Below are positions 1,522 to 44,676 of a DNA stretch of 64,000 bases, piece by piece; the stretch's first letter is position 1; every line of letters starts with the position of its first letter. The DNA lies in NCBI RefSeq assembly GCF_000832985.1, contig NZ_CP009920.1:186001-250000 (forward strand), written 5' to 3'. Under the pieces are notes generated by a model, which did not search any database, was not told where the DNA came from, and saw only the letters and a list, made by a program, of their open reading frames with translations. Source of the DNA: Priestia megaterium NBRC 15308 = ATCC 14581. GTDB taxonomy: Bacteria; Bacillota; Bacilli; Bacillales; Bacillaceae_H. The translations under genes and the position numbers were made by a program.

Positions 1522-1556
1522 GAAAAAAGAGCGGCTGTTTCCGCTCTTTTTTCTTT
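1522..1556. terminator. Bidirectional rho-independent terminator
   Basis: An AGAGCGG/CCGCTCT stem is flanked by A and T runs on both sides. It separates the hydrolase from the convergent ferredoxin gene. Confidence 0.85.
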
Positions 1557-1884
1557 ACTTTTTATTTAAGATGATATGCGACTGATCGGAAGAAGCGGTG
1601 GATTTTCTTCCTTTTCCCCAGCCTACAGCTTCCCGGTAACTTCCGAGCAAGTGCTGATTTATTACATGCTGTTCATTTACTTCTACAGTTTGTTCAGCTA
1701 AAGGCGTCACATATAAAGCATCTACCGGACAGTACAGTTCACACATAAAGCAAGTTTGACAATCGGATTGACGAGCTATGGAAGGAGCACCTCCCATTCG
1801 AGAGCGGTCAAAGACATTTGTTGGACAAACGGATACACAAAGATTGCAGTTAATACATCGGTCTTCACTAAGAAGCTCGATCAT
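1555..1884 (-). CDS. Ferredoxin-type protein with two [4Fe-4S] clusters
   Basis: A 109-residue electron-transfer protein. It has two full cluster motifs of the CxxCxxCxxxCP type, one at residues 10-21 and one near 42-53, and a roughly 50-residue tail without cysteines. Its start codon overlaps the stop of the upstream flavoprotein gene (TAATG), so the two are translationally coupled. The pairing resembles AprB/AprA-like or fumarate-reductase-like flavoprotein-ferredoxin modules. I infer that it shuttles electrons for the flavoprotein; the redox partner and substrate are unknown. Its place under a leader shared with sulfur-scavenging genes suggests sulfur metabolism. Confidence 0.8.
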   Translation of the reverse strand: MIELLSEDRCINCNLCVSVCPTNVFDRSRMGGAPSIARQSDCQTCFMCELYCPVDALYVTPLAEQTVEVNEQHVINQHLLGSYREAVGWGKGRKSTASSDQSHIILNKK

Positions 1885-3482
1885 TAAATAACCCCCTTTA
1901 CGCGATCAGAAGATTTTGTACCTAAGGGTCTCGCCCAGACTTCCTGCACCCCTCCGCTTAGAATGCGGTAGTGTTGCTTGGAATCCATAAACGGAAAATC
2001 GTCACGCCGGTGCATTCCTCGCGTTTCTTTCCTTTCTAATGCACTTGTATACATCCATCGCGCCGTTGCCGTCATGGCCGCAAGCTCTCGACTTCTCACG
2101 ATGTTTCTTTCTTTATCATATACTCCATTCTTCAACTCATCCCACACGGCATTTAACTTCATAAGGGAATCTTGCAGTCTTACTTCTGAACGGAACCAGT
2201 TTCGATCATATGGAAAGACTTCGCGCTGAACCGATGCTATCATTTCCTTCGTATCTGCTGCGTCAGAAGAAGCTACTGACTTTGTGATTCCTGACGCTTC
2301 TGATACGCCTTTTGCATGTCGACTTGCGGCATTTTTTCCTTGCTTAACAGCAAATGCTGCCGCTGCTTTTCCTGACCAGCAGCCTGAAGAGATAGCCCAC
2401 GCTGCATTATGGCTTCCTCCTCCCGTAAATCCTCCGCAAATTAATTCGCGCGTTGCCGCATCTCCGGCTGCATATAAACCTGGAATGTCGGTTCTACACG
2501 TTTCATCTGTAATGTGAATACCTCCTGTTCCTCTAACAGTTCCTTCAAAACGCAGGGTGATTGGAAACATTTGAGTAAAGGGATTTATATGAAGACGATC
2601 AAATGATAAAAAGAAATTTGGCTGTGATAAGCGCATGGCTTTTTGAATGCTTTCATCCGCTTTGTCCAGCCTTGCATAAACGGGCTGGGTCATTAACGTT
2701 CTGGCAATGATGGAACGTCCTTTATGAGAACCGGCTCCTTCAATCACTGTACCGTCTTCATAATAAAATGTAGCCCATTTATAAAATGCAGATTTTGTGA
2801 TTGGAGAAAAAGCTGGCGAAATTGAATAAGCATTTGAAAACTCCATACCTGAAAGGGCCGCACCTGCTTCTGTAGCTAATAAGTAACCGTCTCCTGTTAA
2901 AACATTTGTACCGAGTGCTCCGCTCAGAAATGCACACCCTCCCGTTGCAATCACAACTGCAGCAGCCTCTACTCTCCATGTTTCTTGCGTTTGATTATTG
3001 ATTCCGCACGCACCTGCCACACCGTGTTCATCTGCAAGAAGCTCCAGTGCGGGGCTGTGGTCCAAAATCTGAACGTCTGCTTTTTGAAGCTGACGCCGCA
3101 TTAATCTCATATATTCAGGACCTTGAAGAGTCGTTCGCTGAGAAATCCCTTTTTCATCTACTGGAAACGGATAGCCAAAATGCGCTAACTCATTTACTTG
3201 TTCAAACGTACAATCAAGCACTCGCTTCATCCAGCTTCTTTCGGCTAAATATCCTCCCAGCTCTTCCCTGCTTTTCATCGCGGTCATCTGTTCATCAGAA
3301 GTGGGCTTTACATACCAAACTCCTGTACCAGAAGGCGCAGTTGCTCCGCTCGTTCCGCAATATCCTTTATCAACAAGTGCAGCTTTTGCACCTTCTTTAA
3401 CTGCTTGCAGAGCTGCCCATGCACCAGCAGGGCCTCCTCCAATAATTAATACATCTGTATGAAAATGAAAGTCGGCAGTCAT
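1884..3482 (-). CDS. FAD-dependent oxidoreductase, fumarate reductase/AprA-like flavoprotein
   Basis: A 532-residue flavoprotein of the succinate dehydrogenase/fumarate reductase/APS reductase alpha superfamily. The N-terminal dinucleotide motif IIGGGPAGAWAA is at residues 12-23. A GGCAFLSG segment and a late GLYAAGDAATRE FAD-contact motif are present, and the C-terminal helical domain is intact. It forms a two-gene operon with the overlapping ferredoxin gene. The transcript carries the tandem-hairpin leader near 3630-3690. APS reduction, sulfonate oxidation or another sulfur-compound redox step are all possible; the sequence does not decide between them. There is no signal peptide, so it acts in the cytoplasm. 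Confidence 0.75.
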   Translation of the reverse strand: MTADFHFHTDVLIIGGGPAGAWAALQAVKEGAKAALVDKGYCGTSGATAPSGTGVWYVKPTSDEQMTAMKSREELGGYLAERSWMKRVLDCTFEQVNELAHFGYPFPVDEKGISQRTTLQGPEYMRLMRRQLQKADVQILDHSPALELLADEHGVAGACGINNQTQETWRVEAAAVVIATGGCAFLSGALGTNVLTGDGYLLATEAGAALSGMEFSNAYSISPAFSPITKSAFYKWATFYYEDGTVIEGAGSHKGRSIIARTLMTQPVYARLDKADESIQKAMRLSQPNFFLSFDRLHINPFTQMFPITLRFEGTVRGTGGIHITDETCRTDIPGLYAAGDAATRELICGGFTGGGSHNAAWAISSGCWSGKAAAAFAVKQGKNAASRHAKGVSEASGITKSVASSDAADTKEMIASVQREVFPYDRNWFRSEVRLQDSLMKLNAVWDELKNGVYDKERNIVRSRELAAMTATARWMYTSALERKETRGMHRRDDFPFMDSKQHYRILSGGVQEVWARPLGTKSSDRVKGVI

Positions 3483-3629: not shown

Positions 3630-3690
3630 ATAAAAAAGGAGACCAGTCCATTTGTTTCACCACAATGGTCTGGCCTCCAGTTGCCTAGTA
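3630..3690 (-). promoter_or_regulatory. Tandem-hairpin leader, copy D (flavoprotein/ferredoxin operon)
   Basis: Read on the minus strand, a 4-bp hairpin CTAG-GCAA-CTGG (688-677 of kb 3) is followed directly by a long terminator stem. The stem pairs 678-664 with 638-652 with two mismatches and is followed by six T. It contains the 12-base core AGGCAACTGGAG shared with three other leaders in this window. Here the 3' arm of the small hairpin and the 5' arm of the terminator share bases, so the two helices may compete. Confidence 0.65.
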
Positions 3691-3746
3691 GGCGCGTTTT
3701 TTCGTACAGCGTCAGCAATACCTAGTAATTCACTTTGTTTAATTAT

Positions 3747-3775
3747 ATATTAAAAGTTTATGCTAGGATTGTCAA
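3747..3775 (-). promoter_or_regulatory. Promoter of the flavoprotein/ferredoxin operon
   Basis: On the minus strand, TTGACA (775-770) lies 17 bases before TAATAT (752-747). The transcript would start about 50 bases before the leader hairpins. Confidence 0.6.
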
Positions 3776-3821
3776 TGATTATGTTATTCTTAGAATTTAT
3801 TTCGATTGTTCGTATCTCGTA

Positions 3822-3851
3822 TTGACAACTCTATGAATTTTTTGGTAAATT
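3822..3851 (+). promoter_or_regulatory. Promoter of the MFS transporter gene
   Basis: TTGACA at 3822-3827 and TAAATT at 3846-3851 are 18 bases apart. A TATAGGAATT segment lies just downstream at 3866-3875. A GGAAT core also appears at the promoters of leaders B and C, and is compatible with a CymR-type sulfur regulator site. That last point is only an inference. Confidence 0.55.
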
Positions 3852-3882
3852 AATCTCACTAAACGTATAGGAATTAAAAAAA

Positions 3883-3936
3883 CCGACCAGACAACTGGAG
3901 GCTCTTATTCTTTTAAAAAGAATGAGAGCCTTTTTG
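3883..3936 (+). promoter_or_regulatory. Tandem-hairpin leader, copy A (MFS transporter)
   Basis: A small hairpin CCAG-ACAA-CTGG (3887-3898) abuts an 11-bp terminator stem (3900-3910 paired with 3920-3930) followed by five T. The core AGACAACTGGAG is at 3889-3900. The terminator lies between promoter and gene, so it must be regulated for the gene to be expressed. No SAM-I riboswitch core or T-box sequence is present in the short leader. Confidence 0.7.
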
Positions 3937-3974
3937 TTTCCTGAATTATATGTAATACGATAAGGAGGTCAAGT

Positions 3975-5405
3975 ATGGCAAGTGCTCAACCACACGTAAT
4001 TCAATCGCGTCAAGACATTATCAACTTTGTTAATTCAAATCCAGTTACCTCTAAAAGCTGGAAAATCATTTTAGTAGCGTTAGGCGGCATTTTTGTCGAT
4101 GCCTATGACTTTACCAGTCTTGGAATTGGAGCTGATCAGTTAAAAGAACAGTTTAACCTTTCTCCTGCCGGTCTTGGAAGTCTTACAGCTATTATGGCCC
4201 TTGGCGCTTTGTTAGGAGCCACTGTAGGAGGATACTACACGGACAAATTCGGCCGCAACAAAATGTTTTTAATTGATTTATTTTTTATGGTCTTCTCCGC
4301 TCTTGGCGCTGCTTTAGCAACTGATTTAGTTTGGTTGTTTATCTTTCGGTTTTTAATGGGCGTAGGCGTAGGGCTAGATGTTCCGGTAGCGCTCAGCTTT
4401 ATTGCAGAGTTCAGCAATTTAAAGAAAAAAGGTCAATACGTGAACTTGTGGTGTCCCCTGTGGTATGTGGCTGCAACTGTTACTGGACTTGTTGTTCTCC
4501 CTTTTTATCTGCTTGGGCAGCATGAAGATATTTGGCGCTGGTCGGTAGGATTTGGAGCTGTTGCTGCACTAATCGTGCTAATTTTGCGCTACCGCTACAT
4601 GGATGAAAGTCCGATGTGGGCCGCTCATCACCTTCCGCTTAAAGAAGCGGTCAAAGTGTTAGAGAAAACCTATGACATACAAGTCACAGTGGCTAAAAAT
4701 GCAAAAGAAGAACCATTATCTCGTTCAAAAAAACTGTCTTACAAAGCTATTTTCCAAGGGAAGTATCGGGCTCGGACATTTCTAGCTTCCATCATTACGG
4801 CTACTCAAAGTATGCAGTACTTTGCCGTTGGCTTCTATATCCCAACCATTTCTACGCTTATTTTTGGCAAAGGAATGATTTATGCAATTATCGGTACTCT
4901 TTTCTTTAATTTATTTGGGATTATTGGCGGCTTTACACAATCACGGCTAACTGAGCAAGTCGGTATAAGAAAGCTTGCCATTACAGGCTATACCATTTGT
5001 TCTTTAAGCTTAGTCCTGATGGGGCTCACAGGCGATACACATTTTATTGCGCTGCCAATTTTATTTATTGCTTTATTTATTTTCGGTCAATCTTTTGGAC
5101 CCGGAGCGCAAGGGATGACGATGGCTACTCTTTCTTACCCGACTGAACTGCGAGGGCTAGGCTCTGGATGGGGGCAAGGAACAACGCGTATTGGCAGTAT
5201 TTTAGGTTTTTACTTATTTCCGGTTGTCCTTTCAATTGGCGGGATCTATACGACGTTTCTGGTTCTTACAATCGTTCCCGTTATTGGGCTGATCGCGACG
5301 ATTCTTATTAAGTGGGAGCCTATTGGCACAGATGTCGAAAAAGAAGAAGAGCAAGAATTTGAAAGCGATAAAAGCTTTAGTAAAAAAAGTGAGGTCTATC
5401 ACTAG
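3975..5405 (+). CDS. MFS transporter (sugar/organic acid porter type)
   Basis: A 476-residue integral membrane transporter with about 12 membrane segments. The first inner loop carries the major-facilitator signature GYYTDKFGRNK near residue 85, and an RYRYMDESP segment closes the first half. The central cytoplasmic loop spans roughly residues 210-265 and the tail is acidic. The gene follows leader A, and a strong AAGGAGG site precedes its start. It is divergent from the flavoprotein operon, with both under related leaders, so the two probably respond to the same signal. I infer import of an organosulfur or related organic anion; no substrate can be assigned. Confidence 0.8.
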   Translation: MASAQPHVIQSRQDIINFVNSNPVTSKSWKIILVALGGIFVDAYDFTSLGIGADQLKEQFNLSPAGLGSLTAIMALGALLGATVGGYYTDKFGRNKMFLIDLFFMVFSALGAALATDLVWLFIFRFLMGVGVGLDVPVALSFIAEFSNLKKKGQYVNLWCPLWYVAATVTGLVVLPFYLLGQHEDIWRWSVGFGAVAALIVLILRYRYMDESPMWAAHHLPLKEAVKVLEKTYDIQVTVAKNAKEEPLSRSKKLSYKAIFQGKYRARTFLASIITATQSMQYFAVGFYIPTISTLIFGKGMIYAIIGTLFFNLFGIIGGFTQSRLTEQVGIRKLAITGYTICSLSLVLMGLTGDTHFIALPILFIALFIFGQSFGPGAQGMTMATLSYPTELRGLGSGWGQGTTRIGSILGFYLFPVVLSIGGIYTTFLVLTIVPVIGLIATILIKWEPIGTDVEKEEEQEFESDKSFSKKSEVYH

Positions 5406-5428
5406 CTATAATCCTAGTAAAAACGGAA

Positions 5429-5467
5429 AACACCTTCAAGTGCAGTGTGCTTGAAGGTGTTTTTTGT
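5429..5467 (+). terminator. Rho-independent terminator after the MFS gene
   Basis: A 12-bp stem (5429-5440 with 5450-5461) is followed by six T. Confidence 0.85.
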
Positions 5468-5499
5468 TAAAGGTCGATAAAATACATACTCGTAAAAGG

Positions 5500-6042
5500 C
5501 TATGCAAAGCGCCCCATCACTACCGTGTTATAGTACTTGCCGTCAGACAGCACCTTATCATTTTTTAATACTCCTTCTATTTCAAACCCGAACTTTGTAT
5601 ATAAATCAATCGCTTTTTTATTGGTCTCTAACACATTTAACGTCATTTTCTTCATGTCCGCGCTATCTGCCCACAGTATGGACTGCTGTAAAAGCTCTTT
5701 GCCAATTCCGTATCCCCAATGTTCTTTTGCGATGCACACGCCAAACTCTACTTTATGAGAAAATCGTTTCAATTCGTTGCCTTGGCACCTTGAAAATCCG
5801 ACGATTTCATTATGTACGCTTGCTACTAAAAATAAGTTTCGTTTACTTTCTGTGTCACGTTGAATAAGTTTTTTAAAATCGGATTCTTCCATACATCCTT
5901 CCCCTGGTTCACGATCTAAGTTTTCCGTTTCTCCGTCTAGCTGAACTCTAAGGTGAGACAGTTCGTGTGCATCGCTGGTGTCAGCTGAACGAATGATGTA
6001 CTGAAGTCCTTTTACATTATAGATTTGCTGGTTGATGACCAT
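5500..6042 (-). CDS. GNAT-family N-acetyltransferase
   Basis: A cytoplasmic acetyltransferase of about 180 residues. It shows the GNAT acetyl-CoA loop EHWGYGIGKELL (Q/RxxGxG/A type) and a C-terminal NKKAIDLYTKFGFEIEG motif typical of the fold. I chose the ATG at 6042 because TTGGAGGAATACG sits just before it; an in-frame upstream ATG at 6066 lacks such a site. The acceptor is unknown. It lies between sulfur-related transcripts but has no shared leader, so membership of that regulon is not supported. Confidence 0.75.
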   Translation of the reverse strand: MVINQQIYNVKGLQYIIRSADTSDAHELSHLRVQLDGETENLDREPGEGCMEESDFKKLIQRDTESKRNLFLVASVHNEIVGFSRCQGNELKRFSHKVEFGVCIAKEHWGYGIGKELLQQSILWADSADMKKMTLNVLETNKKAIDLYTKFGFEIEGVLKNDKVLSDGKYYNTVVMGRFA

Positions 6043-6134
6043 CGTATTCCTCCAAGCGTCTTTCATAAATCTATCAATTGAATTTAATTTCCTTTAATAT
6101 AAATATTATACATAAAGAAAGAGAGCTGAACGAG

Positions 6135-6599
6135 TTGCTTTGGTTACTGCTTTTAATTCTATACGGCATTTACAAGTTCTATAAATCAAGAAGATCTCTA
6201 ACGAAGTTTGACCATTTTTATGAGAAAGCGTTTGAGCTAGAAGAAAAAAAGCGATATGAAGATGCTCTTGATATACGCAATCAAGGGATCGAACTCCATA
6301 CCCTTACCGATTTAGAACGAGCTGATTTACATTTAGCAAATGGGCGTATGCTTTTAAAACTAAAGCAATACGAAGAAGCAACAAAACACTACGATGCCTC
6401 ATTTAAGCTAGCAAAATATGAAAAATTCCCTTACTCAGAAGGATTTGACGAAGTCATTGAAGCTTACTTGTATGCAGGGCGTAAAGAAGATGCGCTGATA
6501 ATAACCAACGACATGTTAAAACGGCAAAGCTATGATCAAAAATTTAAAAAGCTAGAGCCTTTAAAAGAAAAGCTTCTTTCATATGAAGATTCATGGTAA
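6135..6599 (+). CDS. TPR-like protein with N-terminal membrane segment
   Basis: A small protein, about 154 residues from the TTG at 6135, which follows an AAAGAGAG site. A hydrophobic stretch LLWLLLLILYGIYKF at the N-terminus would anchor it, with a cytoplasmic helical region of two or three TPR-like units (near ALDIRNQGIELH and EEATKHYDASFKLA). TPR domains mediate protein-protein contacts; no partner is visible. An in-frame start further upstream (6078, TTG) is possible but has no ribosome binding site. Confidence 0.6.
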   Translation: MLWLLLLILYGIYKFYKSRRSLTKFDHFYEKAFELEEKKRYEDALDIRNQGIELHTLTDLERADLHLANGRMLLKLKQYEEATKHYDASFKLAKYEKFPYSEGFDEVIEAYLYAGRKEDALIITNDMLKRQSYDQKFKKLEPLKEKLLSYEDSW

Positions 6600-6647
6600 A
6601 ATTAAACAATTGAAAGCGTATTATTAAGAGCGACTGAGGTGAACGTA

Positions 6648-6734
6648 ATGGTCATAACCGTCATTGTAGGAGTGCTGGGTTTAATTGGTTTAATTGCAGC
6701 AGGTTTTGCGACGAATTATAAAGATACGAAGTAA
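6648..6734 (+). CDS. 28-residue single-pass membrane peptide
   Basis: A short ORF starts at ATG 6648 behind GAGGTGAACGTA and ends at TAA 6732-6734. It encodes about 20 hydrophobic residues (VITVIVGVLGLIGLIAAGFA) and a short polar tail ending NYKDTK. A strong terminator follows at once. Good translation signals and the membrane-peptide composition support a real gene. I do not recognise the family. Confidence 0.5.
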   Translation: MVITVIVGVLGLIGLIAAGFATNYKDTK

Positions 6735-6740
6735 GGATAC

Positions 6741-6781
6741 ATAAAAAAGAACAAGAACCAAATAGGTTCTTGTTCTTTTTT
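6741..6781. terminator. Bidirectional terminator
   Basis: A 14-bp inverted repeat (AAGAACAAGAACC and its complement) with A/T flanks separates the small peptide gene from the convergent M20 gene. Confidence 0.85.
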
Positions 6782-7965
6782 TAACGAGCCAACAGCTTTT
6801 CTGTTATGCGCAAAAACATCTTTACGCCAATTTCAAGCGAGTCTTCATCTACCGTAAACTTCGGATGATGATGAGGGTATACGATGCCTTCTTCTTCATT
6901 TCGTGCTCCAATGTTAAAAAACGCCCCTTCCGTTTCCTGCAGGTAAGCTGAAAAATCTTCTCCTCCCATTTTAGGAGACAGCGTTTTAACCCGTTCTTTT
7001 CCATATTCTTCGATAGCTGTTTCTTCAATTAAACGCGTAATTTCTTTAGAGTTAATGACAGGATGATAGCCTTTTTCATATGTGAAGGTGTACTCTGCAC
7101 CGTAGGCTTCTGTTAGTCCTTTGACGATACGGTCAATTTGTGCCGGAACTTTTTCTCGCAGAGCCGCGTCAAAGCTGCGAACGGTTCCGTTCAGCTCCAC
7201 TTTATCAGGAAGTACGTTGTGCGTAGTTCCACCGTGGAATTGTGTAACCGATACGACTAATTTATCGATTGGATTCGTCGTTCTTGAAACAATCGTTTGA
7301 AGGTTTGTCACAATTTGCGCTCCTACAACGATAGCATCAACTGCTTCATGAGGCGCTGCGGCGTGTCCTCCTTTTCCTTTAATCGATATGTTAAACGTGT
7401 CAGGCGAAGCCATCATAGGACCTGCAAGCACGCCGATTTCTCCGACGGGAAGACCAGAATTCAAATGCGTACCAATTACGTAATCCACCCCTTCCACCAC
7501 GCCTTCTTTCACAAGCTCCTGCGCTCCTCCCGGCAGCAGCTCTTCTGCGTGTTGAAAAATCAAGCGAATTTCTCCTTTAAATTCATTTCCTAACTGAGAA
7601 AGAACAGAAGCTACTCCTAATAAAATAGCCGTGTGACCGTCATGTCCGCATGCATGCATCACGCCTTTATGAACAGAAGCAAATGCAAACGTGTTTTCTT
7701 CTTCAATCGGCAGCGCGTCCATATCCGCTCGAATCGCAACTACTTTCCCCTGCTCTTTTCCTATTAATCTAGCCACCACGCTTGTTGGTGTAGGACGCGT
7801 AATGATAAAGCTTCCAAACGAACGAAGCGTATCTTCAACGTACTGAGCCGTTCGATGCTCTTGAAACGATAATTCAGGATAGCGATGAAAATGTCTTCTC
7901 CACTCAATTACCTGCTTCTTTAAGCTTTCTGTGACGCTGTATTCACTGATTGATTTGACTGTCAT
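6781..7965 (-). CDS. M20-family amidohydrolase/N-deacylase
   Basis: A metal-dependent aminoacylase/deacetylase of about 394 residues. The M20D metal ligand motifs are visible: HACGHDGHTAILLG near residue 105, a QHAEELLPGGA motif with the catalytic Glu pair, and GTHLNSGLPVG. It ends at the window's convergent terminator. The ATG at 7965 follows GGGGGAG; its first 23 bases overlap the end of the monooxygenase gene, so the two are coupled. B. subtilis pairs YtnL or YxeP deacetylases with flavin monooxygenases in salvage of S-modified cysteines. I infer the same job here: removing an acyl group from N-acyl-cysteine or methionine-type intermediates. Confidence 0.8.
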   Translation of the reverse strand: MTVKSISEYSVTESLKKQVIEWRRHFHRYPELSFQEHRTAQYVEDTLRSFGSFIITRPTPTSVVARLIGKEQGKVVAIRADMDALPIEEENTFAFASVHKGVMHACGHDGHTAILLGVASVLSQLGNEFKGEIRLIFQHAEELLPGGAQELVKEGVVEGVDYVIGTHLNSGLPVGEIGVLAGPMMASPDTFNISIKGKGGHAAAPHEAVDAIVVGAQIVTNLQTIVSRTTNPIDKLVVSVTQFHGGTTHNVLPDKVELNGTVRSFDAALREKVPAQIDRIVKGLTEAYGAEYTFTYEKGYHPVINSKEITRLIEETAIEEYGKERVKTLSPKMGGEDFSAYLQETEGAFFNIGARNEEEGIVYPHHHPKFTVDEDSLEIGVKMFLRITEKLLAR

Positions 7966-9295
7966 AAACAAACTCCCCCTTTGTTTGACTATATCGATTG
8001 GCTGGAACGGAGAGATTTAAATTTCCGCGCAGCGTATCGCTTTCATATGAAGTGTCGTAAAGCCCATGCTCCTGTAAGATAGGCACCACTTTTTCCACAA
8101 ATTGATGAAACGTCTCGCTCATAAAAGGACGAAGCACAAATCCATCCGCTGCTTCTTGCTCATGCCATTTTTGCATTTCATCCGCAACGTGTTCAGGTGT
8201 CCCTGAAAACGGCGAACGCGGCAATATTGTTTCAAGCGCCACTTGTCTTAACGTTAACTTGCGAGCAGCCGCCGCTTGTTTAATTTTATTTGTCGTGCTT
8301 TGAAAGGCATTGGCTCCGATATCCCCTAACTCTGGAAACGGTGCGTCTACGTCAAATTGATGAAAGTCGTAGTCATCAAAAAAACGAGATAGATATGTAA
8401 TGGCATGATCAATTGGAATTAAAGCGGCAAGCTCTCTATATCTTCTTTCTACATCTTCCTCGCTATCTCCTATAATTAAATCAATACTTGGAAAAATGAG
8501 AAGCTCTTCGGGATTTCTTCCGTGATTTTTTGCTCTATTTTTCATATCTTGATAGAATGCCCGCGCTTCTTCTAGTGTATGTGCATTTGTATAAATCGCA
8601 TCGGCATTCTCTGCTCCGAATTCTCTTCCTCTTTCTGATGAACCTGCTTGAAACACAACCGGATGTCCCTGCTTTGAACGAGCAATATTTAACGGCCCTT
8701 GAACTTGAAAATGTTTACCTTTAAATCCAAGCGTATGCATTTTCTTTGGATCAAAAAACTGCCCGGTTTCTTTTTGATAGATAAAAGCATCGTCTTCCCA
8801 TGAATCCCACAGTCCTTTTACTGCATCGAGATGCTCTTTTGCAATTTCGTATCGCTCGCTGTGATGAGGAAGATATCCTCTGCTGTGATTGCGCGCTGCC
8901 CCTTCTTGCGGAGAAGTAACTACGTTCCATCCCGCTCTCCCGCCGCTTATATGATCAAGAGACATCAGCTGACGAGCGATTGTAAAAGGCTCACTGAAAC
9001 TTGTTGAAATCGTCCCGACTAGTCCGATGTGACTCGTAGAAGCAGCGAGAGCTGACAGCAGCGTAATTGGCTCAAAACGATTTAAAAAGTGAGGAATAGA
9101 CTTTTCAGATATGGCTAATCCATCTGCAATAAAGACAAAGCTGAACAGTCCTTTTTCCAATATACGCGCTTGTTTCTTATAAAACTCAATATTAATGCTC
9201 GCATCAGGCTCTGCGTCCGGATGTCTCCATCCATCCGTCGTATTTCCAAGGCCTTTAATATTTGCTCCTAGCTTTAGCTTTCTTTTTTCACTCAA
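7943..9295 (-). CDS. NtaA/SnaA/DszA-family flavin-dependent monooxygenase
   Basis: A 450-residue luciferase-like monooxygenase using FMNH2 from a separate reductase. The family segments FSEPFTIARQLMSLDHISGGRAGWNVVTS and FQAGSSERGREFGAENAD are present near residues 100-130 and 215-235. It starts at TTG 9295 behind AGGAGGAAGTATACG. It is cotranscribed and overlaps with the M20 deacylase, an arrangement like B. subtilis YtnJ-YtnL and YxeK-YxeP, which degrade N-acetylated S-substituted cysteine. Its transcript begins with leader B. Related enzymes also attack nitrilotriacetate or sulfones, so the substrate is inferred from context. Confidence 0.8.
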   Translation of the reverse strand: MSEKRKLKLGANIKGLGNTTDGWRHPDAEPDASINIEFYKKQARILEKGLFSFVFIADGLAISEKSIPHFLNRFEPITLLSALAASTSHIGLVGTISTSFSEPFTIARQLMSLDHISGGRAGWNVVTSPQEGAARNHSRGYLPHHSERYEIAKEHLDAVKGLWDSWEDDAFIYQKETGQFFDPKKMHTLGFKGKHFQVQGPLNIARSKQGHPVVFQAGSSERGREFGAENADAIYTNAHTLEEARAFYQDMKNRAKNHGRNPEELLIFPSIDLIIGDSEEDVERRYRELAALIPIDHAITYLSRFFDDYDFHQFDVDAPFPELGDIGANAFQSTTNKIKQAAAARKLTLRQVALETILPRSPFSGTPEHVADEMQKWHEQEAADGFVLRPFMSETFHQFVEKVVPILQEHGLYDTSYESDTLRGNLNLSVPANRYSQTKGEFVYDSQINQ

Positions 9296-9321
9296 CGTAT
9301 ACTTCCTCCTTTTTACGACAA

Positions 9322-9372
9322 ATAAAAAGAGATGCTTTGATTGTTCAAAGCATCTCCAGTCGTCTGGTCGAT
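9322..9372 (-). promoter_or_regulatory. Tandem-hairpin leader, copy B (monooxygenase/deacylase operon)
   Basis: On the minus strand, hairpin CCAG-ACGA-CTGG (9367-9356) is followed by a perfect 11-bp terminator stem (9355-9345 with 9340-9330) and a T-rich tract. The core is AGACGACTGGAG. This leader is longer than the others and has an extra 7-bp hairpin upstream (GCTATTT/AAATAGC, about 9391-9412). Confidence 0.7.
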
Positions 9373-9441
9373 TGTTTTTAAACGGCTATTTATTTAGAGC
9401 AAAATAGCTGTTGACCTCTCATTTATTTAGCTTATTTGAAT

Positions 9442-9468
9442 AGTATACTCACTATTCCTATAAGTCAA
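9442..9468 (-). promoter_or_regulatory. Promoter of the monooxygenase/deacylase operon
   Basis: On the minus strand, TTGACT (9468-9463) precedes TATACT at 15 bases or TACTAT at 17 bases. A TATAGGAATAGT segment fills the spacer and carries the GGAAT core also seen at the promoters of leaders A and C. Confidence 0.5.
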
Positions 9469-9557
9469 GTTTGTTTTTAGTTAAAATAAATGATCTCTTC
9501 TTTCTTTAACTAAACTTAATTACGATTTCATTCTTTTTAAATTTCTTAAAACTCATT

Positions 9558-9586
9558 TTGACTATCGGAATAACCGGTGATATAAC
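9558..9586 (+). promoter_or_regulatory. Promoter of the sfnG-like operon
   Basis: TTGACT at 9558-9563 and TATAAC at 9581-9586 have 17 bases between them. A TCGGAATAACC segment lies in the spacer. Confidence 0.55.
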
Positions 9587-9610
9587 TATATGTACATTCA
9601 GCATCCATAC

Positions 9611-9675
9611 TGCCTGTCAGGCTACTGAAGGCTCTTATCTTCTCTTCAACTTGAAGCGAGATAAGAGCCTTTGGC
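9611..9675 (+). promoter_or_regulatory. Tandem-hairpin leader, copy C (sfnG-like operon)
   Basis: Hairpin TCAG-GCTA-CTGA (9617-9628) abuts a 13-bp stem (9628-9640 with 9659-9671). The core is AGGCTACTGAAG. Both pairs that differ from copy A (T-A instead of C-G) are compensated, which supports a real RNA helix. The T tract after the stem is short (TTTGG), so this copy may terminate less well. Confidence 0.65.
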
Positions 9676-9741
9676 ATTTAAGGAGTTGAATGTTTAACCC
9701 AGCTCATTTATTTTCACTATTTAACTAAGGAGGCGTTACAT

Positions 9742-10815
9742 ATGAGTTTGCAATTTGCTTATTGGGCTCCGAACGTAAGCGGAGGTCTTGTCATTTCCAA
9801 CATTCCTCAAAAAACAGAGTGGTCATTTGAAGCGAACAGCCGGTATGCGCGAATTGCCGAGCAGGTGGGCTTTGATTATGTTCTCTTGCAAACTAGGTTT
9901 TTTGCAAGCTACGGAGCTGAAAATCAACTAGAAGCTGCGACTCTCGCTTCTGCTTTGGCCGCCACTACTAAAAAAATCAACATTATTACAGCAGTTCTTC
10001 CGGGGCTATGGCATCCCGGCGTATTTGCTAAAATTATTTCGACTATTGATCATATCAGCAGCGGACGCGTCTCAGTGAACGTTGTAAGCGGCTGGTTTAA
10101 AGGCGAATTTAACGGCTACGGCGAACCATGGCTAGATCATGATGAGCGCTACCGCCGTTCTGAAGAATTTATTAACGTGCTTCGAGAGCTATGGAAAAAC
10201 GAAACGACTACGTTCAAAGGAGACTTTTACCGATTAAATGACGCACCGTTAAAACCAAAGCCTCTTCAGCCGCCAAAAGTATTTCAAGGAGGAAACTCTA
10301 AAGCAGCCCGTGAAATGGCAGGCCGAGTATCAGACGTTTATTTCATGAACGGCAACTCGATTGAAAACTTAAAAAACCAAATTGAAGATGTAAAAGCAAA
10401 CGCAAACGGCCGTGATATTCAATTCGGTGTGAACGGGTTTGTCATTGTCCGTGAAACAGAAGAAAAAGCAAAACAAGTGCTAAAAGAAATTGTGCTACAA
10501 GCGGATAAAGAGGCCGTTGAAGGGTTTGAAAGTCAAGTGCAATTTGCGGGAAAAGCTTCTCCTCAAGGTGAAGGCATGTGGGCAAACTCTTCATTTGAAA
10601 ACTTAGTTCAGTACAATGATGGCTTTCGAACTGGCCTTATCGGAACGCCCGAACAAGTCGCCAATCAAATTATCGAACTGAAAAAAATCGGCGTGGATAT
10701 TATTTTGACAGGCTTTTTACATTATGAAGAAGAAATCAAAACGTTTGGCGAAACCATCATTCCGCTCGTAAGACAAAAAGAACAGGAGCTAAAAGAAAAA
10801 GCGGGCGCATTATAA
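9742..10815 (+). CDS. sfnG: SfnG-like FMNH2-dependent dimethyl sulfone monooxygenase
   Basis: A 357-residue luciferase-like monooxygenase. The opening FAYWAPNVSGGLVIS, the block VNVVSGWFKGEFNGYGEPWLDHDERYRRSEEF around residues 110-140 and the LKPKPLQPPKVFQGGNS segment match what I know of SfnG, which cleaves dimethyl sulfone to methanesulfinate. It starts at ATG 9742 behind AAGGAGG, downstream of leader C. It is followed after 42 bases by an acyl-CoA-dehydrogenase-like gene, the usual partner class (SfnB/DszC type) in sulfur scavenging. Other sulfone or sulfonate substrates are possible. Confidence 0.8.
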   Translation: MSLQFAYWAPNVSGGLVISNIPQKTEWSFEANSRYARIAEQVGFDYVLLQTRFFASYGAENQLEAATLASALAATTKKINIITAVLPGLWHPGVFAKIISTIDHISSGRVSVNVVSGWFKGEFNGYGEPWLDHDERYRRSEEFINVLRELWKNETTTFKGDFYRLNDAPLKPKPLQPPKVFQGGNSKAAREMAGRVSDVYFMNGNSIENLKNQIEDVKANANGRDIQFGVNGFVIVRETEEKAKQVLKEIVLQADKEAVEGFESQVQFAGKASPQGEGMWANSSFENLVQYNDGFRTGLIGTPEQVANQIIELKKIGVDIILTGFLHYEEEIKTFGETIIPLVRQKEQELKEKAGAL

Positions 10816-10857: not shown

Positions 10858-12078
10858 ATGTCAGTCGAAGTTTCTGCACGTCCTTTATACAATCAATCAA
10901 CGCGCGCTTATTACGCGTCCATCCGCGAGAAAATCACTTCTCTTGTAGATGAAGTGATCCGGCCTAATGCAGCCCTTACAGATGAAGAAGGCGTTTTTCC
11001 ACGAAAAAATTTAGAAGCGCTTATTAAAGCCGGCTGGGGAAACATTCTTGTACCAAAGGCATACAGCGGCTTAGAACTTGATCACGTGGCTTTTGCGATT
11101 GTAGCTGAAGAAATTGCAAAAGCTTGTGCTTCCACTGCTTTGGTTTACGTGATGCATGTCGGAGCAATTCAAACTATTACGCTGTACGGAAACGACGATC
11201 AAAAGAAACGCTGGTTGCAACCAATTGACCAAGGACTGATTGGTACGTACTCTACAAGTGAAAAAGCCTCAGGAGGACACTGGTGGTACAACTTCAGTCA
11301 AGCGCAGCGAAATGGCGAAGATTATGTAGTTAATGCTGACAAATCCTTTACTACGAGCGCCGGGCAAGCTGATTTTTATATCGTCCAAACACGCAGTCCT
11401 GAAGCACAAGAAGCAACGGATATTAGCTTTTTTATTGTAGATGGAAAATCAGACGGCATCACCGCAAGTCCATGGGAAGCGCTGGGCGTTCGCGGCAATC
11501 ACAGCGGTCCGATTTCTTATAAAAATGTACACGTGCCAAAAGAAGATCTTCTAGGCAGTGAAGAAACAGGGAAAGAAATCGTCTTAAACGGCGTTTCCCC
11601 TATTTATTTAATTGGCCTTGGTTCTGCTTGGCTTGGCGTAGCGGAACATGCGCTAGAGCTTGCGGTTAACCATGCAACGCGAACGATTCACCGCGATTTT
11701 AATAACCAGCTTAGCGACTATCAAGTCATTCGCCAGCAGATTGCCGAAGCAAAAGTCCTCATTGAAAGCACCAAACCATGGCAAATTGACTTGGCAGAAC
11801 AGCTTGATATTTTACAAGCTGAACAAAAAGCACAGGGTGTTCTTACCCTTCCGCTGACTGAATTTAAAGTTCATGCTTCAGAAGTAGCCAACAAAGCAAC
11901 GCGAATTGCATTGGATGTAAGCGGCGGATACGGCTATAAAAAAGGCCCTATTGAACGCTTGTTTCGAGATGCCAGAGCGGGCATTGCTATGGGTCCTTCT
12001 AATAATATTGCCAGAGAATGGATCGGAAAGAATCTTGTAGGACTTCCGCTTGAACTTTGGATTAAAGGAGGAGAGTAA
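10858..12078 (+). CDS. Acyl-CoA-dehydrogenase-family flavin oxidoreductase (SfnB/DszC-like)
   Basis: A 406-residue protein of the acyl-CoA dehydrogenase fold. The helical N-terminal domain, a middle beta domain (STSEKASGGHWWYN and ADKSFTTSAGQADFY near residues 135-170) and the C-terminal helical bundle ending with GGYGYKKGPIERLFRDARAG are all present. Members next to flavin monooxygenases usually serve sulfur acquisition rather than beta-oxidation. It follows SfnG closely with a GGAGG site and shares its leader. I infer flavin-dependent oxidation of an organosulfur intermediate; true acyl-CoA dehydrogenation is the alternative. Confidence 0.75.
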   Translation: MSVEVSARPLYNQSTRAYYASIREKITSLVDEVIRPNAALTDEEGVFPRKNLEALIKAGWGNILVPKAYSGLELDHVAFAIVAEEIAKACASTALVYVMHVGAIQTITLYGNDDQKKRWLQPIDQGLIGTYSTSEKASGGHWWYNFSQAQRNGEDYVVNADKSFTTSAGQADFYIVQTRSPEAQEATDISFFIVDGKSDGITASPWEALGVRGNHSGPISYKNVHVPKEDLLGSEETGKEIVLNGVSPIYLIGLGSAWLGVAEHALELAVNHATRTIHRDFNNQLSDYQVIRQQIAEAKVLIESTKPWQIDLAEQLDILQAEQKAQGVLTLPLTEFKVHASEVANKATRIALDVSGGYGYKKGPIERLFRDARAGIAMGPSNNIAREWIGKNLVGLPLELWIKGGE

Positions 12079-44265: not shown

Positions 44266-44676
44266 CTCTGTTTCAACAACGTTCGATAAGCCATGTTTTG
44301 TACCTTTGTACTGCAAACGATTTTACTCTCGTACTCAGGCGGTAATCATCTATCTACGATTACACATGTAACCGTCCGTCTCTCCGTTGAATTCCTTAGA
44401 GACAGTTCCCCTACCATTGTTTGGGTTTCTCGCTCGTGGGGTTTACCGCGTTCCACCTTTGCTGTTTCCAGCAAAGCTTCGTCACTGTGGCACTTTCAGG
44501 GATACTCGACCATATCCGAGGACTTAGGTGGTTTTTCCCGCCGTCAGCTAAGCTATAAGCCAAGCTGCCCTAGCTTATTTTTTCACTAGGCACGAACACT
44601 ACGGGCATCTCAGCACCGTGCGAGCATGGACTTTCCTCTACATCAAATGATGCAGCGATTACCTGAACGTTATTTC
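44266..44676 (-). ncRNA. rnpB: RNase P RNA, Bacillus (B) type
   Basis: The catalytic RNA that cleaves the 5' leader from tRNA precursors. Read on the minus strand it follows B. subtilis rnpB in order: GGTAATCGCTGC, AGAGGAAAGTCCATGCTCGC, CGGTGCTGAGATGCCCGTAG, AAAGTGCCACAGTGACGAAGC, GTGGAACGCGGTAAACCCC, AGATGATTACCGCCTGAGTA and the closing ACATGGCTTATCGAACGTT. Its ends pair (AACGTTC with GAACGTT) to form P1. Length is about 410 bases, normal for the B type. The exact ends are estimated. Confidence 0.95.

Follow-up and report, generated by a model that had tools for sequence, protein, structure and literature searches.

The S-adenosylmethionine (SAM-I) riboswitch controls sulfur genes by termination and opens in SAM shortage, when these genes are needed. 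Antiterminators of the BglG/SacY/LicT family act on a leader hairpin between promoter and gene, the ribonucleic antiterminator (RAT), which is stabilised by the protein, and ANTAR targets consist of two hairpins with a hexaloop carrying A1 and G4. The available part of PMC12691694 describes the dfn leader of Bacillus, where a small hairpin is combined with an intrinsic terminator and read-through depends on the protein LoaP. Naville and Gautheret (2010), in the portion of their text at hand (PMC2965389), reported that a sulfonate ABC operon is preceded by a common attenuator, for which they suggested a role in sulfonate metabolism. Here we describe a leader element of approximately 23 nt that occurs in four copies in a 64,000-nt stretch of Priestia megaterium NBRC 15308 = ATCC 14581 (contig NZ_CP009920.1, positions 186,001 to 250,000; hereafter the window, whose coordinates and strands, (+) and (-), are used below), and whose distribution across Bacillales and phages follows that of two small proteins, YezD and XtrA.

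The initial annotation of this DNA had pointed to four leaders with a common 12-base core, and exact matches to AGRCNACTGRAG are present in all four, at 3675-3686 (-), 3889-3900 (+), 9354-9365 (-) and 9619-9630 (+), i.e. within 6 kb and arranged as two divergent pairs inside a sulfur gene cluster. The loops ACAA, ACGA, GCTA and GCAA and the abutting terminators are also as it described. However, it took the small hairpin to stand beside an independent terminator, whereas the bases 5' of the hairpin pair with the start of the terminator 5' arm, making the structure an antiterminator. The leader features are listed below; bit scores refer to covariance model R1. Its 15 source sequences comprise the four window copies, three orthologues from the same genus and eight others, so that each copy is itself part of the model. 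The promoter-like sites of copies 1 to 3 are consensus matches only.

3747..3775 (-), promoter-like TTGACA-17-TAATAT upstream of copy 1
3672..3694 (-), antiterminator hairpin of copy 1, CGCC-TA-CTAG-GCAA-CTGG-A-GGCC
3639..3676 (-), intrinsic terminator of copy 1, 5' arm common with the antiterminator, fold -16.4 kcal/mol
3633-3694 (-), R1 match of copy 1, 45.2 bits
3822..3851 (+), promoter-like TTGACA-18-TAAATT upstream of copy 2
3881..3903 (+), antiterminator hairpin of copy 2, AACC-GA-CCAG-ACAA-CTGG-A-GGCT
3899..3932 (+), intrinsic terminator of copy 2, fold -19.7 kcal/mol
3881-3938 (+), R1 match of copy 2, 65.2 bits
9440..9468 (-), promoter-like TTGACT-17-TACTAT upstream of copy 3
9351..9373 (-), antiterminator hairpin of copy 3, AATC-GA-CCAG-ACGA-CTGG-A-GATG
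9329..9355 (-), intrinsic terminator of copy 3, fold -13.8 kcal/mol
9323-9373 (-), R1 match of copy 3, 47.2 bits
9558..9586 (+), promoter-like TTGACT-17-TATAAC upstream of copy 4, found by eye and absent from the promoter scan
9611..9633 (+), antiterminator hairpin of copy 4, TGCC-TG-TCAG-GCTA-CTGA-A-GGCT
9629..9671 (+), terminator hairpin of copy 4, -23.0 kcal/mol, stem strong, U tract poor (TTTGGCATTT)
9611-9677 (+), R1 match of copy 4, 50.5 bits

The element consists of an outer stem P1 of 2-4 bp, a small internal loop, an inner stem P2 of 4 bp (YYRG/CYRR) and a loop of 4 or 5 nt, mostly NCNA, with the core NNYY-KR-YYRG-loop-CYRR-A-RRNN. The RCNA loop proposed initially holds for the four window copies; family-wide, the first loop position can be any base. 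In copies 1 and 4, where the internal loop reads TA and TG, its U forms a further pair with the bulged A, which reduces the loop to a bulge of one base; P1 of copy 2 has two pairs only. Because the terminator begins with the 3' strand of P1, the antiterminator and terminator folds are mutually exclusive. Before the 3' arm of the terminator is made, the nascent RNA of each window copy folds into the antiterminator hairpin (-5.9 to -10.6 kcal/mol); the terminators, at -13.8 to -23.0 kcal/mol, are approximately 6 to 13.5 kcal/mol more stable. The layout is that of a termination/antitermination switch, and it is very probable that the element serves as one for a sulfur regulon.

Covariation in P1 was assessed on the results of a strict scan that demands YYRG/CYRR, four P2 pairs, an A after P2, nine of ten terminator pairs and four T in eight positions. 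These demands predetermine that P2 is paired, that a G-C pair closes it and that the A is bulged. P1 pairing was not demanded, although the extended pattern described below preset Y-C at two P1 bases, the pattern for viral copies preset several, and R1 carries base preferences in P1. The scan returned 166 instances, four of which were dropped for an atypical internal loop; 82 distinct sequences with a 4-nt loop were used, a few of which may be chance hairpins, and sequences with a 5-nt loop were left out of the count. Read side by side, the P1 strands pair as AGTC/GACT, TGCC/GGCA, AGCT/AGCT, GACC/GGTC, GTTC/GGAC and CACT/GGTG. Across the 82 distinct 23-mers, 86.6% of P1 cells are paired vs 69.8% after shuffling, double-change cells number 66 vs 23, and the covariation score is 0.61 vs 0.32, with slid registers reaching at most 0.17. 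The outermost pair is the weakest (unpaired in 33 of 82). Without the 16 pattern-fetched rows, pairing is 87.9% vs 70.5% (66 rows), and within the sulfur-type rows alone it is 86.7% vs 77.0% (47 rows); in both cases none of 2000 shuffles reached the observed value. P2 shows the exchanges CG/UA, CG/UA and AU/GC, with letters and pairing demanded by the scan, so that independent covariation there comes from a single pair (CG 10, UA 5, mispaired 0), for which the pattern had allowed C-A and U-G.

The core alone would be weak evidence: with up to one mismatch, the 12-mer has six matches in the window vs 2.5 expected, and six were reached in 4 of 100 shuffles. A chance repeat is nevertheless rejected, because hairpin, terminator and covariation together are beyond chance. 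The window scan found 31 terminator-like sites, an excess over the 16.4 in shuffled sequences. The initial placement of each copy between promoter and gene stands in part: promoter-like sites do lie upstream, but they are consensus-only, and the scan of the window is no richer in them than shuffles (32 vs 30.5). The whole genome holds nine exact cores, and a terminator hairpin abuts only the four of the window; among the five others, one (L007) has a terminator approximately 20 nt further on, at a gene end, and the remaining four have none within the 120 nt inspected. The combination of hairpin and abutting terminator also stands before sulfur genes in other genera. Seven further copies of the element were counted in the same genome: four R1 matches at E<=0.01, one of which, before an SsuD-like gene, lacks the bulged A; the R1 matches L074:257-307 and L075:421-481; and a seventh in the yezD leader, identified by reading.

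An extended pattern, YCKRYYRGRCNACTGRAG, matched in 22 of 397 Bacillales genomes; outside the genus it found hairpin-terminator pairs in L027, L030, L033, L035, L036, L038, L039 and L043, and elsewhere clear chance matches inside genes. R1, the kind of covariance search that the initial annotation had called for, matched in 157 of the 397 genomes at E<=0.1 (74 of 135 genera) and in 94 at E<=1e-5. Matches lie before genes for sulfate, sulfonate and methionine uptake, SfnG- and SsuD-like monooxygenases, TauD and CysH-like proteins (the names ArpU-, CysH- and SsuD/SsuA/SsuC/SsuB-like are given here by resemblance only, with no family search). Sulfur-type copies had 68 first downstream open reading frames (ORFs), four elements being without one; after removal of three repeats, six close orthologues, one ORF behind a spurious hairpin and one doubtful case, 57 were scanned. 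Among the Pfam matches listed (25 of 46 families), there were ten luciferase-like monooxygenases, seven ABC ATPases, seven solute-binding proteins (seven also match NCBIfam sulfate-binding models), four FMN reductases, four DUF2292 proteins, three transporter membrane parts, three FAD proteins, two each of Rrf2, FbpA, FbpB and the NIL domain, and one each of TauD, a Cys/Met PLP enzyme and PALP. In B. spizizenii TU-B-10, a relative of B. subtilis, R1 has a single match at E<=0.01; it lies in the leader of an ABC ATPase gene read as ssuB. A phage-type element (TCTACCAGNCNACTGGAGGACAC) precedes phage genes, some of them ArpU-like, in 48 IMG/VR stretches. The sulfur-only role first proposed is too narrow, because phages carry a variant.

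Compared with described systems, the element resembles RAT in being a short leader hairpin with an asymmetric internal loop that overlaps the 5' arm of an intrinsic terminator; RAT is stabilised by a protein, and we propose the same here. It differs in having one internal loop and another sequence and terminal loop, whereas RAT has two asymmetric internal loops and the RAT consensus; in the absence of sugar/PTS genes among the downstream families listed behind sulfur-type copies; and in that the proteins linked to it, YezD and XtrA, have 50-70 aa, unlike the BglG/LicT class. The dfn leader, as far as the available text of PMC12691694 goes, differs by its UNCG tetraloop, by a hairpin apart from the terminator, by a NusG paralog as factor and by its antibiotic operons; a LoaP-type hairpin was rejected, as no UNCG is among the loops found and the window loops do not fit. 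An ANTAR target was rejected as well for the four window copies, which have tetraloops instead of hexaloops; the family-wide scan covered loops of 4-5 nt. Like the element, the SAM-I riboswitch (S box, RF00162) gates sulfur genes, but no element matches it, and size and fold differ. Scans of the window copies and fetched loci found no Rfam family at gathering level at the elements, and no T-box match in the window or the fetched loci; this agrees with the earlier view of a termination-control leader linked to sulfur genes and outside known families. Seven weak Rfam matches, all below gathering, are to plastid, microRNA and snoRNA models (a mir-600 match overlies the copy 4 terminator on the opposite strand) and, in one case away from the four elements, to PyrR. 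Table 4 of PMC4342826, in the part available, places SAM and 'PyrR' elements of Bacillus methanolicus before sulfonate, MFS and methionine-uptake genes, and these 'PyrR' annotations might be the present element. The 2010 attenuator is likewise a premature terminator before a sulfonate operon; the accessible text of PMC2965389 describes neither a structure nor a factor nor phage copies for it, and is not explicit about the organism. It is quite possibly a member of this family, and part of the present observation may thus already be in print (PMC2965389).

The candidate factors emerged from gene distribution. YezD (DUF2292, PF10055) is present in 190 of the 397 genomes and XtrA (PF17356) in 96; the Bacillus subtilis control genome has both families. 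One or both occur in 92 of the 94 genomes with an R1 match at E<=1e-5 vs 152 of 303 others (odds ratio 46, Fisher p 1.6e-20, with no correction for kinship). The copies in these 94 genomes were classed by sequence as phage-type or sulfur-type. The 27 XtrA-only genomes comprise 22 with phage-type copies, one mixed (G231, whose second hairpin, inside an ORF, is read as spurious), one sulfur-type (G345) and three fetched without a strict instance, so that 22 of 24 classed are phage-type only. The 38 YezD-only genomes comprise 28 sulfur-type, one mixed (G220, with a GTTC-type copy directly after yezD), six without a strict instance and three not fetched, i.e. 28 of 29 classed are sulfur-type only. 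Where both factors are present (27 genomes), 11 are sulfur-type, seven phage-type, one mixed and eight not fetched. Two genomes have neither: G308, which is sulfur-type, and G282, not classed, whose strong R1 match looks like a false positive on reading of the two best of its four matches (L307, L309). With the second hairpin of G231 set aside, YezD is present in all classed sulfur-type carriers with a strong R1 match except G308 and G345.

In bacteria yezD adjoins elements, often directly before one. Of the best 80 named yezD loci, 77 show a yezD frame by the pattern used, and in 45 of these 77 the stop codon is followed by a core within 140 nt; in control windows taken from these loci the figure is 14 of 3420. 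The gene order yezD-element-CysH-like gene is seen in L185, L202, L206 and L212. In phages, the element follows xtrA; XtrA is encoded upstream on the same strand in 30 of the 48 IMG/VR stretches, including every one of the 26 whose upstream DNA reaches 1600 nt or more, and the 18 without it have at most 1572 nt. A SAM riboswitch precedes yezD at ten distinct loci (L062, L202, L212, L257, L262, L273, L298, L199, L203 and L207; L101 is the same place as L273); in L277 and L288 it is near yezD on the other strand. In the window genome, the sole yezD over cut-off lies outside the window (C6:4267151-4267258), in a sulfate-uptake locus with the order element-yezD-element-fbpA-element-sulfate-binding protein, where the first element, in the yezD leader, was identified by reading. 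An element in the leader of yezD itself would form a positive feedback loop.

On distribution and position, YezD, and XtrA in phages, probably bind the hairpin and operate the switch by read-through. In the leader RNA the terminator would win by default; a small RNA-binding protein, YezD for the sulfur regulon and XtrA for phage copies, would hold the hairpin and let the polymerase pass. Sulfur shortage would trigger the production of YezD: in some lineages a SAM riboswitch before yezD would open, and in others an element in the yezD leader would provide positive feedback. The protein would then act on its own operon and, in trans, on further sulfur-scavenging operons, among them those led by the four window copies, with yezD itself encoded elsewhere in the genome. 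The initial proposal of a switch or attenuator sensing sulfur thus survives as termination control; its own sensing is not needed and a protein-operated switch fits, because a hairpin of approximately 23 nt follows the YezD/XtrA distribution and yezD sometimes lies behind a SAM riboswitch. More tentatively, and with slightly less than even confidence, YezD and PBSX-type XtrA might represent one minimal antitermination family, with a relay from SAM riboswitch to yezD to regulon in some bacilli and temperate phages gating part of their gene expression likewise. A universal SAM-riboswitch relay was rejected, the riboswitch preceding yezD at 4 of the 80 named loci only. If true, this scheme would explain how sulfonate and sulfate operons are controlled in Bacillales, assign functions to two small uncharacterised families, DUF2292 and PBSX XtrA, and connect a nutrient regulon of the host with gene control in phages. 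In the accessible text of PMC10714963 YezD is a protein of unknown function, as it is in that of PMC6385201, where yezD deletion did not lower survival under deep starvation. A literature search of the titles and abstract openings listed, with most subscription journals and preprints outside its scope, found no antiterminator role assigned to YezD/DUF2292 or XtrA.

YezD and XtrA were also compared as proteins. AlphaFold predicts a helix and a beta-hairpin for YezD (pLDDT 74, pTM 0.45) and beta-hairpins for XtrA (pLDDT 82, pTM 0.50). Profile comparison with hhalign aligns YGSVEIVIHDSQITQIDR with HGETKIITHQGKVKRVKF (probability 10-14%, E 0.002-0.003); its score was reached by 1 of 300 column shuffles in local mode, and an ungapped 24-column block by none of 2000. 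These results are suggestive of a similar predicted beta-hairpin stretch, and not proof; shuffling also removes strand alternation. Whether the two belong to one protein family is evenly balanced. The PDB sequence matches of YezD were set aside, ten of 13 being designed propellers.

Another factor, such as a general RNA-binding protein, a NusG paralog like LoaP, or FbpA/FbpB, might instead bind the leader, with YezD a mere member of the regulon. We consider this unlikely. It draws on the position of both yezD and FbpA/FbpB genes after elements, on the lack of a PDB fold match for YezD, and on the precedent of a small Bacillus leader hairpin bound by LoaP (available text of PMC12691694), yet the RNA described there is a UNCG hairpin away from its terminator. 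A general factor would not explain the co-occurrence in 92 of 94 genomes or the agreement between copy class and factor. The Fbp proteins were rejected as factor: FbpB, used as a control family, is unspecific, being found in 37 of 38 YezD-only element genomes and in 43 of 43 element-free genomes (every third of 129 without element or factor), and FbpA is absent from 7 of the 38. It is highly improbable that the hairpin is a minimal metabolite riboswitch binding a sulfur compound itself; its small conserved loop, internal loop and strong tie to one pathway would suit such a role, but it is no longer than about 23 nt, neither the first loop base nor the internal loop is constant, phages carry the same element, and its distribution tracks two small proteins. 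That YezD and XtrA favour termination is very unlikely. Structure and co-occurrence leave the sign to be inferred, but without protein the window terminators are already the more stable fold, and yezD is often found ahead of the gated genes and in some cases behind a SAM riboswitch.

Several observations weigh against YezD and XtrA as the operators. The co-occurrence test disregards kinship. G308 has a convincing sulfur-type copy before tauD with no XtrA match and no YezD match even at E 10, and G345 has a sulfur-type copy yet only XtrA. The 240 genomes without an R1 match include 78 with YezD only, 22 with XtrA only and 11 with both. For YezD, these are often misses of R1: 20 yezD loci were fetched from 19 of the 89 such genomes, and 15 carry the hairpin, 14 of them within approximately 160 nt downstream of yezD; the other five of 20 lack it. 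In the Bacillus subtilis group, the strict scan found no element near yezD (150 nt downstream were read in three members). XtrA may just be a constant neighbour in one phage lineage, and a SAM riboswitch precedes yezD at few of the named loci (4 of 80). The protein models are of low pTM (0.45-0.50), the YezD model has no match in the PDB below E 2.5, and the YezD-XtrA similarity is weak, its score being reached by 17 of 200 shuffles in another mode.

The genes behind the four window copies are as follows.

1884..3482 (-), FAD-binding flavoprotein (fumarate/APS-reductase-like), first gene after copy 1; no NCBIfam match over cut-off among those shown
1555..1884 (-), 4Fe-4S ferredoxin, partner of the flavoprotein
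3975..5405 (+), MFS transporter after copy 2; best match, to an aromatic acid/H+ symport family, below cut-off
7943..9295 (-), NtaA/DmoA-family FMN-dependent monooxygenase after copy 3; TIGR03860, 527 bits, over cut-off
6781..7971 (-), M20 amidohydrolase/peptidase directly after the monooxygenase; TIGR01891, over cut-off
9742..10815 (+), dimethylsulfone monooxygenase SfnG after copy 4; TIGR04021, 576.5 bits, over cut-off
10858..12078 (+), acyl-CoA-dehydrogenase-like oxidoreductase directly after sfnG; SfnB/DszC-like, weak matches

All four transcripts had been called organosulfur-related; family matches bear this out for SfnG and the NtaA/DmoA monooxygenase, but no equivalog-level name could be given to the MFS transporter or to the FAD/ferredoxin pair. 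The poor U tract TTTGGCATTT of copy 4 (9629-9680) recurs in its same-genus orthologues, and termination before sfnG may be leaky. The APS-reductase-like pair of FAD flavoprotein and ferredoxin follows an element both in the window (1555-3482) and in L089:794-2756, and the start of a similar FAD gene follows one in L080.

Other genes recur behind elements. Riboflavin-kinase-like proteins stand in L076:3600-4058 (-) (Pfam Flavokinase) and at the start of L038; they plausibly supply FMN to the FMN-dependent monooxygenases. Small FbpA/FbpB (Fur-regulated basic protein) paralogues after sulfur elements (L074:339-491, L084:3180-3371, L097:986-1165 and L076:2846-2986) are possibly a sulfur-sparing counterpart of the iron-sparing response. 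DUF2325-type small proteins are found in the same sulfur operons (L090:5066-5368, by Pfam, and L084:4703-4951). The names of the L038 frame, the L084 protein and a cystine-binding-like protein in L075 rest on resemblance, with no family search. A CymR-like GGAAT box, present in 20 of 91 upstream regions vs 203 of 1820 control windows, was too weak to use. Rrf2-family regulators follow elements in L073 and L192 (two Pfam matches), and the antitermination layer may therefore feed a DNA-level regulator. The window also carries a class B RNase P RNA at 44282-44670 (-), which is ordinary.

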